Source: a virus
IMG/VR virus record: IMGVR_UViG_3300025133_000423
Coordinates: 1 to 30,948 of that record
Strand: one strand, 5' to 3'
Length of the DNA stretch: 30,948 nt
Shown: piece by piece, positions 1,273 to 11,709 of the stretch
How positions within the stretch are numbered: position 1 is the first letter of the stretch
Layout of the letters: each line of letters begins with the position of its first letter
Notes under the pieces: generated by a model
What the model saw: the letters and a program-made list of their open reading frames with translations, nothing else
Databases searched by the model: none
Told to the model about the DNA's origin: nothing
Made by a program: the position numbers and the translations under genes

Positions 1273-1316
1273 ACCGGGCACATAAGGGCCCGGTAGGCTA
1301 ACCACCTGCCGGGCCC
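1273..1316 (+). terminator. two overlapping, mutually exclusive hairpins
   Basis: Hairpin 1 pairs ACCGGGC (1273-1279) with GCCCGGT (1288-1294). Hairpin 2 pairs GGGCCCGGTAGG (1286-1297) with CCTGCCGGGCCC (1305-1316), 12 bp including one G-U pair, with loop CTAACCA. Both need the same middle segment, so only one can form at a time. It separates the gene ending at 1271 from the promoter of the next gene. Confidence 0.6.
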
Positions 1317-1366
1317 GTGCTGTGTATAATGGGTACTCCACGGGGGCACTGCCCCCACACTGAAAG
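1317..1366 (+). promoter_or_regulatory. cassette B1: TATAAT promoter, 5' hairpin, RBS
   Basis: A perfect TATAAT (1325-1330) lies 8 bases after the terminator arm. A start of transcription near 1337 would put the hairpin GGGGGC-ACT-GCCCCC (1342-1356) about five bases from the mRNA 5' end. GAAAGG (1362-1367) is followed by ATG 1376. No TTGACA-like box is seen 16-18 bases upstream, where the terminator arm lies. The same block recurs four more times. Confidence 0.7.
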
Positions 1367-1375
1367 GTCTGACCC

Positions 1376-1600
1376 ATGAGCACCCCGACTAACAACCCTT
1401 GCCCCTACGTGGAAGCCTACCGCGCGGGGGGTGACGCGTTTACGCCCCCCGGACCCGGGGAGACTCTGCCGAGCATGCCGGAACATCCGTATCTCGATAG
1501 CCCGGACGTGGACATCCGAGATAACTTCAAAGACGGCTGGAATGACGCACGGTGCGACCACGTGACCTACAGTGGCGGGGGATTCCGGGACCGCCGATAG
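1376..1600 (+). CDS. hypothetical small acidic protein
   Basis: 74 residues from ATG 1376, 8 bases after GAAAGG. Rich in Pro, Asp and Gly, without membrane segments. It has two cysteines (CPYVEAY near residue 9 and CDHVTY near residue 60). The motif DNFKDGWNDARCDH near the C-terminus resembles the [YF]-x-[DE]-GW-x-DA pattern found in many small phage proteins; a related YRDGWEDSERA motif occurs in the leftward gene at the right window edge. The stop codon TAG (1598-1600) lies inside the left arm of the next terminator hairpin, so coding end and terminator share bases. Function unknown. Confidence 0.7.
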   Translation: MSTPTNNPCPYVEAYRAGGDAFTPPGPGETLPSMPEHPYLDSPDVDIRDNFKDGWNDARCDHVTYSGGGFRDRR

Positions 1601-1616
1601 GCTAACCACCTATCGG
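1594..1616 (+). terminator. hairpin terminator overlapping a stop codon
   Basis: CCGATAGG (1594-1601) pairs with CCTATCGG (1609-1616), 8 bp, with the shared loop CTAACCA. Relative to the copies at 1286 and 2377 both arms change together (GGTAGG/CCTGCC to GATAGG/CCTATC), so pairing is kept. The stem is shorter than in other copies because its outer left arm is replaced by the end of the coding sequence. Confidence 0.6.
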
Positions 1617-1671
1617 GCCCGTGCCGTGTATAATGGGTACTCCACGGGGGCACTGCCCCCACACTGAAAGG
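1617..1671 (+). promoter_or_regulatory. cassette B2: TATAAT promoter, 5' hairpin, RBS
   Basis: TATAAT at 1629-1634, hairpin GGGGGC-ACT-GCCCCC at 1646-1660, GAAAGG at 1666-1671, ATG 1681. Sequence from the loop CTAACCA to GAAAGG is almost identical to B1. Confidence 0.7.
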
Positions 1672-1680
1672 CTAGAGACC

Positions 1681-1980
1681 ATGAGCAACGACTACCGAAA
1701 GGTAATCCGCGATGGGGTCGCCGCACATTTCGCCGGCCTGGGATTCCGACTGACATCGCTGCGAACCGAGGTCAGCAGCACCCGCGTTGAGTTTGTGTGT
1801 CGTGGCGAAACTCCGAAGGGCTTTGGGACGTGGGAGGGCCACCACGACCGTCACGGAGTCGACGTCTACAATGGACACTACTTCGGGGCCGGTGATGAGG
1901 AGCGTAGCGCCTCGATTGCGGACTACACCGCAAGGTGCGGAGATATGTGGCGGACTAACCGGCCCGGTCCGGGCCGCTAG
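1681..1980 (+). CDS. hypothetical protein
   Basis: 99 residues starting MSNDYRKVIRDGVAAHFAGL. The start is taken at ATG 1681, 9 bases after GAAAGG; the same frame is open upstream through the leader, but an earlier start (GTG 1621) would lie before the promoter. A first helix-like segment (residues 4-22) is followed by likely beta strands (SLRTEV, RVEFVCRG), then a His/Gly-rich region (GHHDRHGVDVYNGHYFG, about 58-75) and a C-terminal segment with one cysteine. The His-rich patch could bind metal, but no known motif is complete. Single-gene unit. Function unknown. Confidence 0.7.
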   Translation: MSNDYRKVIRDGVAAHFAGLGFRLTSLRTEVSSTRVEFVCRGETPKGFGTWEGHHDRHGVDVYNGHYFGAGDEERSASIADYTARCGDMWRTNRPGPGR

Positions 1981-2005
1981 CAAGGACCCCACCAGGGCAC
2001 AAATC

Positions 2006-2034
2006 GGCCCGATAGGCTAACCACCTATCGGGCC
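2006..2034 (+). terminator. hairpin terminator with compensatory changes
   Basis: GGCCCGATAGG (2006-2016) pairs perfectly with CCTATCGGGCC (2024-2034), 11 bp, loop CTAACCA. Compared with 2720-2748 (GGTAGG/CCTACC), both arms have changed in step, which is direct evidence for selection on the RNA or DNA stem. Confidence 0.65.
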
Positions 2035-2090
2035 CGTGCCGTGTATAATGGGTACTCCACGGGGGCACTGCCCCCACACTGAAAGGCTTG
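2035..2090 (+). promoter_or_regulatory. cassette B3: TATAAT promoter, 5' hairpin, RBS
   Basis: TATAAT 2044-2049, hairpin GGGGGC-ACT-GCCCCC 2061-2075, GAAAGG at 2081-2086, ATG 2096. Same layout and spacing as B1 and B2. Confidence 0.7.
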
Positions 2091-2095
2091 AGACC

Positions 2096-2344
2096 ATGAG
2101 CGACTACCAAGACATCGACCCCGGACCGGACGCTTACGATGAGGAGGAGGACGAGTGTAGTGTGTGTGGGAAGGTCAAGGCCCTGGGGCACGGACGCTGG
2201 GAGGACGAGTGTGTGGATTGTGCGGAGGCCGGCGTGTGGGGCGCATGGGAGGAGTGCCCGCTGTGCCGGAACGGGACAGTCGAGGTAGTACTCGATGAGG
2301 TCCTCTGTCGGGGGGAGTGCGGCAACATCTGGAGGCAGGCCTGA
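2096..2344 (+). CDS. double zinc-ribbon small protein
   Basis: 82 residues starting MSDYQDIDPGPDAYDEEEDE; start set by GAAAGG 9 bases upstream. After an acidic N-terminal tail of about 20 residues come four cysteine pairs: CSVC (21-24), CVDC (39-42), CPLC (54-57) and CRGEC (71-75). This is the pattern of two zinc-ribbon or treble-clef sites, each made of two CxxC-type knuckles. Such modules bind nucleic acid or protein partners such as RNA polymerase or ribosomal components; which applies here cannot be read from sequence. The acidic tail could mimic DNA or a basic partner site. It is the most recognisable protein of the left array. No enzyme motif is present. Confidence 0.75.
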   Translation: MSDYQDIDPGPDAYDEEEDECSVCGKVKALGHGRWEDECVDCAEAGVWGAWEECPLCRNGTVEVVLDEVLCRGECGNIWRQA

Positions 2345-2363
2345 CCGTCCCCGGCTCGAATCG

Positions 2364-2407
2364 ACCGGACACATAAGGGCCCGGTAGGCTAACCACCTGC
2401 CGGGCCC
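2364..2407 (+). terminator. overlapping hairpins as at 1273-1316
   Basis: Hairpin 2 pairs GGGCCCGGTAGG (2377-2388) with CCTGCCGGGCCC (2396-2407), identical to the copy at 1286-1316. The competing upstream hairpin (ACCGGAC 2364-2370 with GCCCGGT 2379-2385) has one A-C mismatch, so it is weaker than at 1273. Confidence 0.6.
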
Positions 2408-2458
2408 GTGCTGTGTATAATGGGTACTCCACGGGGGCACTGCCCCCACACTGAAAGG
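2408..2458 (+). promoter_or_regulatory. cassette B4: TATAAT promoter, 5' hairpin, RBS
   Basis: TATAAT 2416-2421, hairpin GGGGGC-ACT-GCCCCC 2433-2447, GAAAGG 2453-2458, ATG 2467. Same layout as the other B copies. Confidence 0.7.
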
Positions 2459-2466
2459 CTCGACTC

Positions 2467-2676
2467 ATGAGTACCATTAGCCGCTACCTCAGCATCTCCA
2501 CCCACCGCGACCTGGAGACGGGTGACACCTACACGGACGAACGCCTGCACGACTGCGAGGAGGACGCCTGCCGCTCCTTGGCGAGTCCGAACCGGCGCAA
2601 CGGCACGCCGTTCGATACGCTGGTCAATATCCAGGTCTACCTCATCACCGTGGACCTGGGTAAGGGCTTGCTCTAG
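2467..2676 (+). CDS. hypothetical small protein
   Basis: 69 residues from ATG 2467, 8 bases after GAAAGG. The N-terminal half is polar and charged (SISTHRDLETGDTYTDERLHDCEEDACRSL, with cysteines near residues 30 and 35 in a C-x4-C spacing). The C-terminal half ends with a hydrophobic beta-like strand (TLVNIQVYLITVDLGKGLL). It has no membrane helix of full length and no recognised family. Single-gene unit in the cassette array. Confidence 0.7.
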   Translation: MSTISRYLSISTHRDLETGDTYTDERLHDCEEDACRSLASPNRRNGTPFDTLVNIQVYLITVDLGKGLL

Positions 2677-2719
2677 CACGAAGCGTGCCAACTCGCAGGA
2701 CCCCACCAGGGCACAACAC

Positions 2720-2748
2720 GGCCCGGTAGGCTAACCACCTACCGGGCC
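2720..2748 (+). terminator. hairpin terminator
   Basis: GGCCCGGTAGG (2720-2730) pairs perfectly with CCTACCGGGCC (2738-2748), 11 bp, loop CTAACCA. It restores a full Watson-Crick stem where the copies at 1286 and 2377 use a G-U pair. Confidence 0.65.
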
Positions 2749-2799
2749 CGTGCCGTGTATAATGGGTACTCCACCGGGGCGATGCCCCACACTGAAAGG
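2749..2799 (+). promoter_or_regulatory. cassette B5: TATAAT promoter, diverged 5' hairpin, RBS
   Basis: TATAAT 2758-2763. The leader hairpin here is GGGGC-GAT-GCCCC (2776-2788): one base pair shorter and with a different 3-base loop from B1-B4, yet still a stem with a triloop at the same place. GAAAGGG follows and ATG is at 2807. Confidence 0.7.
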
Positions 2800-2806
2800 G
2801 AATAAC

Positions 2807-3118
2807 ATGAGCACCGATTACCCCGTCCGAGACCTCAACTACTACGCAACCACGCCCCTTGCGGGCACCATTCGACGGCTCGGGTGCATGCGAGGCGCGC
2901 ACGGTCAGACGCACGCGCTCCGATGGGTGGAGTTGGAGTCGGGCGACGTGCTGTTCCACGACGCGGGGCGAGCCATCTACGGTGTGTGCACAGTGTCGCG
3001 GGATGACTACACCCCCGCGCGCACGGACCCCGGGCGAAGCCCCGCCTCCCTGGTTGACCGCTGCTACATCCAGGGTTACGCCGCCCACACCTGGCACGGT
3101 AGCGCCAGCTACGTCTAG
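2807..3118 (+). CDS. hypothetical protein
   Basis: 103 residues starting MSTDYPVRDLNYYATTPLAG, start fixed by the cassette B5 ribosome site 7 bases upstream. The middle reads ALRWVELESGDVLFHDAGRAIYGVCTVSRDDY, a run of alternating strands and turns suggesting a small beta barrel or beta sandwich. Three cysteines are scattered and do not form a motif. It is Tyr-rich and soluble. Last gene of the cassette array; a weaker hairpin (3135-3154) follows instead of another B cassette. No family recognised. Confidence 0.7.
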   Translation: MSTDYPVRDLNYYATTPLAGTIRRLGCMRGAHGQTHALRWVELESGDVLFHDAGRAIYGVCTVSRDDYTPARTDPGRSPASLVDRCYIQGYAAHTWHGSASYV

Positions 3119-3134
3119 CAGGACCCTATCGGAC

Positions 3135-3154
3135 CCGGGCACCCCGGGGCCCGG
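3135..3154 (+). terminator. hairpin closing the cassette array
   Basis: CCGGGC (3135-3140) pairs with GCCCGG (3149-3154) around an 8-base loop, the same geometry as at 385-406. No promoter or leader follows, so the array ends here. Confidence 0.5.
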
Positions 3155-3381
3155 TAGGGCGCCCCGCCCAACCCCTAAATCAAAATTTTGAAAATGAAAG
3201 TTCAACATAGGGATATCCCACGTTGTCCCTACACTGTCACTACACTGCGCCAGCCCACCAGCCAACCAGCCCGACACCCCTACCTAGCCGACACTTAACT
3301 AAAGCCGTGTTTTAGTAACGAACACGGAACTAGCACCCCACCGCACCCTACCAAGCCGCTCGCGCCTTGAGCAACTCGTGG
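3155..3381 (+). other. AT-rich non-coding gap with palindromes
   Basis: No gene is visible between the array and the terminase. Bases 3178-3215 are strikingly AT-rich for this window and hold the perfect 10-base palindrome CAAAATTTTG (about 3181-3190) and the inverted pair TTGAA/TTCAA. Near the right end, CCGTGTT (3305-3311) and AACACGG (3321-3327) form a 7 bp inverted repeat around 9 bases, overlapped by ACTAAA/TTTAGT. These could be binding sites for a regulator, a replication or packaging signal, or a terminator; the sequence does not decide. Confidence 0.45.
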
Positions 3382-11662: not shown

Positions 11663-11700
11663 CGAGAACGCCTCGGGCCTTGCGCCCGGGGCGTTTCTCG
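11663..11700 (+). terminator. strong hairpin terminator after major capsid gene
   Basis: CGAGAACGCC (11663-11672) pairs with GGCGTTTCTCG (11690-11700, one bulged T). A G-U pair and the inner stem CGGGC/GCCCG close on a 5-base loop. The stem of about 16 pairs ends in TTGT. A terminator here is common in tailed phages and lets capsid mRNA accumulate above downstream neck genes. Confidence 0.75.
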
Positions 11701-11703
11701 TTG

Positions 11704-11709
11704 TAGAGT
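11704..11709 (+). promoter_or_regulatory. possible -10 box after capsid terminator
   Basis: TAGAGT matches the -10 of cassette A. Upstream, TTGCGC at 11680-11685 (18-base spacing) lies inside the hairpin. It would restart transcription for the neck genes with a 30-odd base leader containing GGAG. Confidence 0.3.

Follow-up and report, generated by a model that had tools for sequence, protein, structure and literature searches.

Two types of repeated putative promoter-leader cassettes precede seven small orphan genes in a myovirus-like phage

Tiny genes without relatives abound in phage genomes, and how these are taken up without disturbing expression is a largely open question. It is raised in a concrete form by IMG/VR virus record IMGVR_UViG_3300025133_000423, of which the complete stretch of 30,948 bases (the window, GC content about 65%) was analyzed. 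Seven short genes on the forward strand with starts at 474, 777, 1376, 1681, 2096, 2467 and 2807 are located left of the terminase gene, directly upstream of the late (terminase-portal-capsid) genes. A preliminary description had proposed that five of them are each preceded by the same cassette of terminator, promoter and leader. Judging from sequence, each of the seven genes is most likely served by a promoter and a structured leader of its own, and a 3'-end hairpin follows most of them. The whole is best explained by seven consecutive orphan genes that each constitute a self-contained expression unit, a reading to which we assign a probability of about 0.62.

Five blocks, termed type 1, share 92–100% identity (positions 1290–1375, 1594–1671, 2009–2086, 2381–2458 and 2723–2799) and stop shortly 5' of the starts at 1376, 1681, 2096, 2467 and 2807, in agreement with the preliminary description. 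They present, always in the same order, a hairpin of 8 to 12 pairs with the loop CTAACCA, the hexamer TATAAT, a leader hairpin with a triloop, GAAAGG and ATG. When the window and eight other loci were scanned with a covariance model, exactly these five blocks scored E < 1e-22 and nothing else came below E = 0.1. All five instances of TATAAT in the window fall within type-1 blocks, compared with 0.34 expected, and none of 100 shuffled sequences reached five. Including flanking sequence, cassette 1 (1272–1375) features a 12-pair hairpin with the 7-base loop CTAACCA (1286–1316), TATAAT (1325–1330), the leader hairpin GGGGGC-ACT-GCCCCC (1342–1356) and GAAAGG (1362–1367), and cassette 4 (2363–2466) likewise contains a 12-pair hairpin (2377–2407), TATAAT (2416–2421), a leader hairpin (2433–2447) and GAAAGG (2453–2458). 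Cassette 3 (1979–2095) comprises a gene-end module that extends from the preceding stop codon, a hairpin of 11 pairs (2006–2034), TATAAT (2044–2049), a leader hairpin (2061–2075) and GAAAGG (2081–2086). In cassette 5 (2677–2806), an 11-pair hairpin (2720–2748) is followed by TATAAT (2758–2763), the leader hairpin GGGGC-GAT-GCCCC (2776–2788) and GAAAGG (2794–2799). The first stem has 11–12 pairs in these four copies, while less of it remains in the fifth: cassette 2 (1594–1680) lacks a gene-end module, and the stop codon of the preceding gene lies in the left arm of a shortened hairpin (1594–1616), of which 8 pairs are left; TATAAT (1629–1634), leader hairpin (1646–1660) and GAAAGG (1666–1671) are in place.

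A second type of repeat, type 2, precedes the genes starting at 474 and 777, so that the count of five holds for type 1 while the array comprises seven cassettes in all. The two type-2 copies are 92% identical. Cassette a (370–473) consists of the hairpin ACCGGGC-ACAATTCG-GCCCGGT (385–406), an extended −10 element, TGC-TAGAGT (426–431), the leader hairpin GTCGCA-CGT-TGCGAC (439–453), GAAAGG (460–465) and ATG at 474; in cassette b (674–776) the corresponding elements are ACCGGGC-GAAACGGT-GCCCGGT (689–710), TGC-TAGAGT (730–735), a leader hairpin (743–757), GAAAGG (764–769) and ATG at 777. Of the eight differences that separate the copies, six lie in the eight-base loop and none in the stem (p = 8e-7); this supports the stem without proving it, because a single replacement of the loop could also explain the pattern.

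In all seven cassettes the −10 hexamer lies 41–46 bases and the ribosome site, invariably GAAAGG, 7–9 bases from the ATG. The triloop leader hairpin occupies the same place in both types, with at least six perfect pairs in six of the seven copies and five pairs in the seventh, compared with a background of 0.94 perfect triloop stems of at least six pairs per kb in the window. The 5' halves of types 1 and 2 are homologous (0 of 1000 shuffles in each of five type-1/type-2 comparisons), and the 5' end of cassette 5 has AGCGTGCCAAC in common with type 2, whereas the promoter/leader (3') halves of the two types are not homologous. A related hairpin module (GCAGGACCC..ACCCGGGCACCCCGGGGCCCGGTAGG, forward strand, 3116–3160) stands alone, without a promoter half, 3' of the last small gene; its similarity was reached by 2 of 1000 shuffles in comparison with cassette 5 and by 12 to 33 of 1000 with three others. 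Taken together, the sequences suggest that one gene-end half was joined to two different promoter/leader halves. The kinship of the type-1 copies fits in here: copies 1 and 4 form one sister pair and copies 2 and 3 another, yet in its gene-end part copy 3 comes nearest to copy 5 (81%), and the two halves of type-1 cassettes thus have different histories. Seven cassettes with exchangeable halves strengthen the modular interpretation.

The arm shared by both types, GGCCCGGT, pairs with its upstream side in type 2 (−13 to −14 kcal/mol). Upstream pairing is possible in some type-1 copies as well (−6 to −14 kcal/mol), but downstream pairing is far better there (−22 to −26 kcal/mol; copy 2, −12 kcal/mol). 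A two-part exchangeable system could be envisaged on this basis, in which type 2 would use the gene-end arm GGCCCGGTAGG for pairing with its upstream side and type 1 for pairing with the promoter half downstream; the same type-1 bases would end one RNA and serve the next promoter as its −35 region, coupling termination with re-initiation, and a new gene would gain a matched off and on signal by recombination in the shared arm. In this far-reaching form we consider the proposal unlikely.

The genes behind the cassettes are unrelated, as had been claimed. Similarity was not detectable between any two of the seven small proteins (all E > 0.1), none yielded a convincing Pfam or PHROG match, and tblastn against 50,697 phage records gave no match. 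Identity between the type-1 copies amounts to 89–100% in the promoter/leader part, 41–81% in the 35 bases upstream and about 50% in coding DNA. The claim that each small, unrelated gene comes with a promoter-leader unit of its own has good support in the sequence. These figures also bear on the idea that gene and leader were duplicated in tandem, that the genes then diverged and that the cassette is merely the constrained part. The regular head-to-tail array would agree with such a history, as would the fact that the products of all five genes behind type-1 cassettes start with MS(T/N/D) and that the genes before cassettes 1 and 3 both end with codons for GPGPGR. Given proteins without detectable similarity, the drop from 89–100% to about 50% identity at the coding sequence and the presence of two promoter classes on one gene-end module, however, we regard tandem duplication as very improbable. 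The similar 3' DNA of the genes preceding cassettes 1 and 3 is CCCGGTCCGGGCCGCT (1246–1271 and 1955–1980), which encodes the shared C-terminal GPGPGR; the shared segment thus extends into coding DNA.

How firmly the hairpins themselves are established differs between their positions. The first hairpins are more stable than shuffled sequences in every cassette except copy 2 (z −2.4 to −5.1), and pairing in the type-1 first stem is kept in 95.5% of cells as compared with 36–61% for slid partners. The arms had been described as changing together. One pair indeed does so (G-C to A-U, copies 2 and 3), but the difference between GGTAGG/CCTGCC and GGTAGG/CCTACC is one-sided, a U-A/U-G change, and the leader stem of the last copy is merely one pair shorter and does not represent a compensatory change. 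Since the copies concerned are sisters, the covariation amounts to about one event; with 52 of 500 shuffles reaching the observed score it is not significant, and covariation was rejected as evidence of structure.

This lack of significance is one of several points that weigh against self-contained units. Leader hairpins do not exceed shuffled versions of the same GC-rich leaders in stability (z −0.5 to −1.5), some of the copies are matched weakly by the hairpin module 3' of the last gene, and no match to a −35 box was found in any cassette. Furthermore, a U-tract is absent after all cassette hairpins: the 12 bases 3' of the hairpin contain 0–1 T in the type-2 and last-gene hairpins and 4–5 scattered T in type 1, and the combination of GC-rich hairpin and U-tract that characterizes canonical intrinsic terminators is not found in them. 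A 12-pair hairpin elsewhere in the window, 3' of the capsid gene, does carry a T-rich tail, TTCTCGTTG, and mycobacterial intrinsic termination needs a U-tract according to the title of Czyz 2014 (listed among the references of PMC4351075). The designation as terminators, as it had been read from the sequence, is consequently not retained. The side observation at 11666–11709 deserves mention here: the hairpin AACGCCTCGGGCC-TTGCG..GGGGCGTT with its T-rich tail is followed by TTG-TAGAGT and represents a more canonical terminator, with a promoter possibly behind it.

The type-1 first hairpin spans about −51 to −21 of the next promoter, i.e., the place where a −35 box would be. In view of this position and of the lacking U-tract we refer to it as a 3'-end hairpin, which may be a terminator or an RNA end protector, its role as a terminator being uncertain. 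The same position makes a DNA operator the main rival explanation. The first inverted repeat would then be bound at about −51 to −21 by a dimer of a phage repressor or activator that switches all type-1 promoters together, in the manner of the phiC31 repressor, which acts at dispersed conserved inverted repeats (CIRs). The repeat sits where a −35 box or upstream factors act, no −35 match exists, and the half-sites are about 19 bp apart from centre to centre. Comparable elements are known from actinophages, i.e., the dispersed perfect intergenic dyad CCTACTCACGTGAGTAGG of phiC31 and dispersed 17–18 bp dyads in Cluster O (PMC4351075) and Cluster EG (PMC7302621) phages. On the other hand, type 2 has no such dyad at this place, its homologous arm pairing upstream instead, and a related hairpin follows the last gene without any promoter. 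In addition, copies 1 and 4 retain RNA pairing via U-G, which breaks DNA symmetry, and the 7-base loop is invariant and asymmetric. The repeat is hence not a perfect dyad of the CIR type, from which it also differs in sequence, and an operator appears doubtful though conceivable. The early region of phiC31, an actinophage, resembles the window in its dispersed intergenic inverted repeats, and hairpin terminators without poly-U have been reported from it (Ingham 1995, as cited in PMC8355165), but its dyad of about 18 bp is loopless and perfect and long near-identical cassettes are not present. In the phiC31 genome, CCTACTCACGTGAGTAGG is found between genes, e.g., at 2850, 17005, 27540 and 41033, and matches the known type of repressor site.

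Under the preferred explanation of self-contained units, host RNA polymerase would initiate at a −10-dominated promoter (TATAAT or extended TGC-TAGAGT) without a recognizable −35 box, and the mRNA would start about 7 bases past the −10 element. A short GC-rich hairpin within the first ~20 bases of the mRNA could shield its 5' end and prevent the leader from pairing with the following gene, leaving GAAAGG free 7–9 bases from the ATG. The RNA of each unit would end at, or be trimmed to, a GC-rich hairpin 3' of the stop codon, which in most copies appears fused to the next promoter half. Recombination between copies may have spread the cassettes and kept them alike, and we infer that genes were gained together with a cassette; a relative of the contig that would permit a presence/absence comparison of the cassette genes was not found.

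Among known systems, the cassettes correspond most closely in layout to a five-copy intergenic repeat of unknown function in the Cluster EI Microbacterium phages MementoMori and Cinna (PMC7302621). In our own reading of both genomes, four of the five MementoMori copies place TATAGAGT or TACAGT first, then a leader hairpin, AAACACC and, ahead of the start codon, GAAAGG or a site like it. In the remaining copy TAGAGT is missing and the leader hairpin is longer. The published repeat of MementoMori (3170–40980) and Cinna thus reads as a TATAGAGT promoter, leader hairpin, AAACACC and GAAAGG, with the leader hairpin GGC-N4-GCC or, in one copy, GGCTG-N7-CAGCC. Shared with the window are an upstream GC-rich pairing sequence, a short leader hairpin, GAAAGG or a related site and the start codon, while AAACACC is absent from our cassettes. 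The −10 hexamer TAGAGT is identical to that of type 2, and the large terminases are distantly related (23.8%). In contrast to the window, the copies in MementoMori and Cinna are scattered genome-wide before genes or gene groups (clearest pairs 57–98 bases at 76–81%), leader stems are weaker (3 to 5 pairs), neither two classes nor a single-gene array exist, and sequence homology to the cassettes is limited to short motifs. In Cluster EF, an extended start-associated sequence (ESAS) centred on GTAGAG occurs with the start-associated sequence (SAS) GGGAAAGGACCCC (PMC7302621). The likeness to these phages supports TAGAGT as the −10 element of type 2 as well as an actinobacterial host, without proving either.

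It also speaks to the idea that the hairpins serve processing and not termination, such that one long RNA would cover all genes, hairpins that are cut or block exonucleases would yield separate stable mRNAs, and the −10-like boxes would be weak or unused. The lack of U-tracts after the hairpins and the prediction of a hairpin at both ends of every unit speak for this idea. It is quite improbable in our opinion, because TATAAT is exclusive to type-1 leaders in a genome with 65% GC, and because TGC-TAGAGT of type 2 has the same hexamer in the same place as the MementoMori/Cinna repeat and resembles the GTAGAG core of the Cluster EF ESAS (PMC7302621).

Further parallels are more remote. The SAS/ESAS elements of Cluster K mycobacteriophages, e.g., TM4 and Adephagia (PMC3203893; PMC11373665), include in TM4 repeats of 81–106 bases with 73–88% identity before small genes; in these repeats, a SigA-like promoter with an inverted repeat is combined with a GC-rich hairpin and with a conserved motif at the ribosome site. 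They differ by a TTGACA −35 box, an inverted repeat around the promoter, dispersed copies and other sequence. At the ribosome site, the 13-bp SAS GGGATAGGAGCCC takes the place of hairpin and GAAAGG; it is not present in our cassettes, all seven of which carry GAAAGG. Neither were the ~17-bp inverted repeats with SigA −35/−10 of Cluster K found, the cassettes having a −10 element alone and an upstream inverted repeat of different sequence. In T4, composite motifs recur ahead of small genes within a region of gene shuffling, as repeats of 57–147 bases with about 70–96% identity. These promoter-early stem-loops (PeSLs) were reportedly described by Arbiol in 2010 and Comeau in 2014. According to PMC4503421 and PMC3950731, they combine a promoter with a stem-loop terminator, and the likeness that had been pointed out is well supported by sequence. 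Hairpin and −10 element are present in seven of seven cassettes, without a U-tract, and a terminator role of the hairpin is uncertain. The PeSLs belong to an unrelated lineage and sequence with GTTTACA upstream, T runs follow the hairpins in two copies read, and there is no 5' leader hairpin with GAAAGG. Nor does the window derive from a T4-like myovirus with T4 early promoters, as its terminase matches phrog_38, the best phage matches are not T4-like and a −35 box is lacking. In the haloarchaeal myovirus HGTV-1, a promoter box and an inverted repeat precede most open reading frames of one genome half, a motif that its authors likened to PeSLs (PMC3950731); here the promoter is of the archaeal type and a repeat scan showed no long near-identical copies. 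A haloarchaeal host, raised by this likeness, was rejected since the proteins are not uniformly acidic.

The statement that the block is not known from other examples accordingly holds for its sequence, as far as the phage, plasmid, IMG/VR and GTDB collections searched (which may lack records very close to the window) are concerned, but not for its architecture, which is known from TM4, MementoMori, T4 and HGTV-1. A search of IMG/VR with the exact core TATAATGGGTACTCCAC gave two matches, both by chance in AT-rich DNA, and core patterns of types 1 and 2 gave none. A single chance match, on an Omnitrophota contig, was obtained in GTDB genomes, and no match of cassette DNA in phage and plasmid records. 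Rfam and tRNA scans returned nothing. Relatives sought via capsid, portal and small proteins were not found, while a search with the terminase led to three distant IMG/VR loci, all without a cassette.

From 3.4 kb onward the window carries genes for terminase, portal, protease, capsid, tail sheath, tape measure and baseplate, which identify it as a fragment of a contractile-tailed phage; the source is an unclassified myovirus-like tailed phage, the host probably a high-GC actinobacterium. The small orphan genes, all on the forward strand, encode proteins of 67 (474–677), 164 (777–1271), 74 (1376–1600, the stop codon being inside the cassette 2 hairpin), 99 (1681–1980), 82 (2096–2344), 69 (2467–2676) and 103 (2807–3118) amino acids. 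The 82-residue protein is acidic and, by eye, zinc-ribbon-like with paired CxxC-type motifs, without a family match. At 3–373, a membrane-like frame that ends at 224 appears to overlap a second frame, which may start with GTG at 215 and ends at 373; no cassette lies between them, and the array therefore seems to start at 370. An AT-rich non-coding gap (3171–3370) separates the last cassette gene from the terminase gene and contains TCAAAATTTTGA, TAGGGATA..TGTCCCTA and CCGTGTT..AACACGG inverted repeats; it is a possible candidate for cos, an origin or a late promoter.

In summary, the array is a real and orderly regulatory array and a further example of an architecture known in a few other phages, not a new category. 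New are its sequence, the combination of one gene-end module with two promoter/leader halves that are interchangeable, and the density of one cassette per gene. Likeness to TM4, MementoMori, T4 and HGTV-1 suggests that the architecture arose several times. For GC-rich bacteria, the cassettes are a source of compact promoter-leader parts that can be tested, and they provide a case that bears, one way or the other, on termination without U-tracts. With regard to the question posed at the outset, the genes look like interchangeable plug-ins, and unrelated genes with near-identical promoter/leader units in two interchangeable versions suggest that some phages possess a standard regulatory socket.

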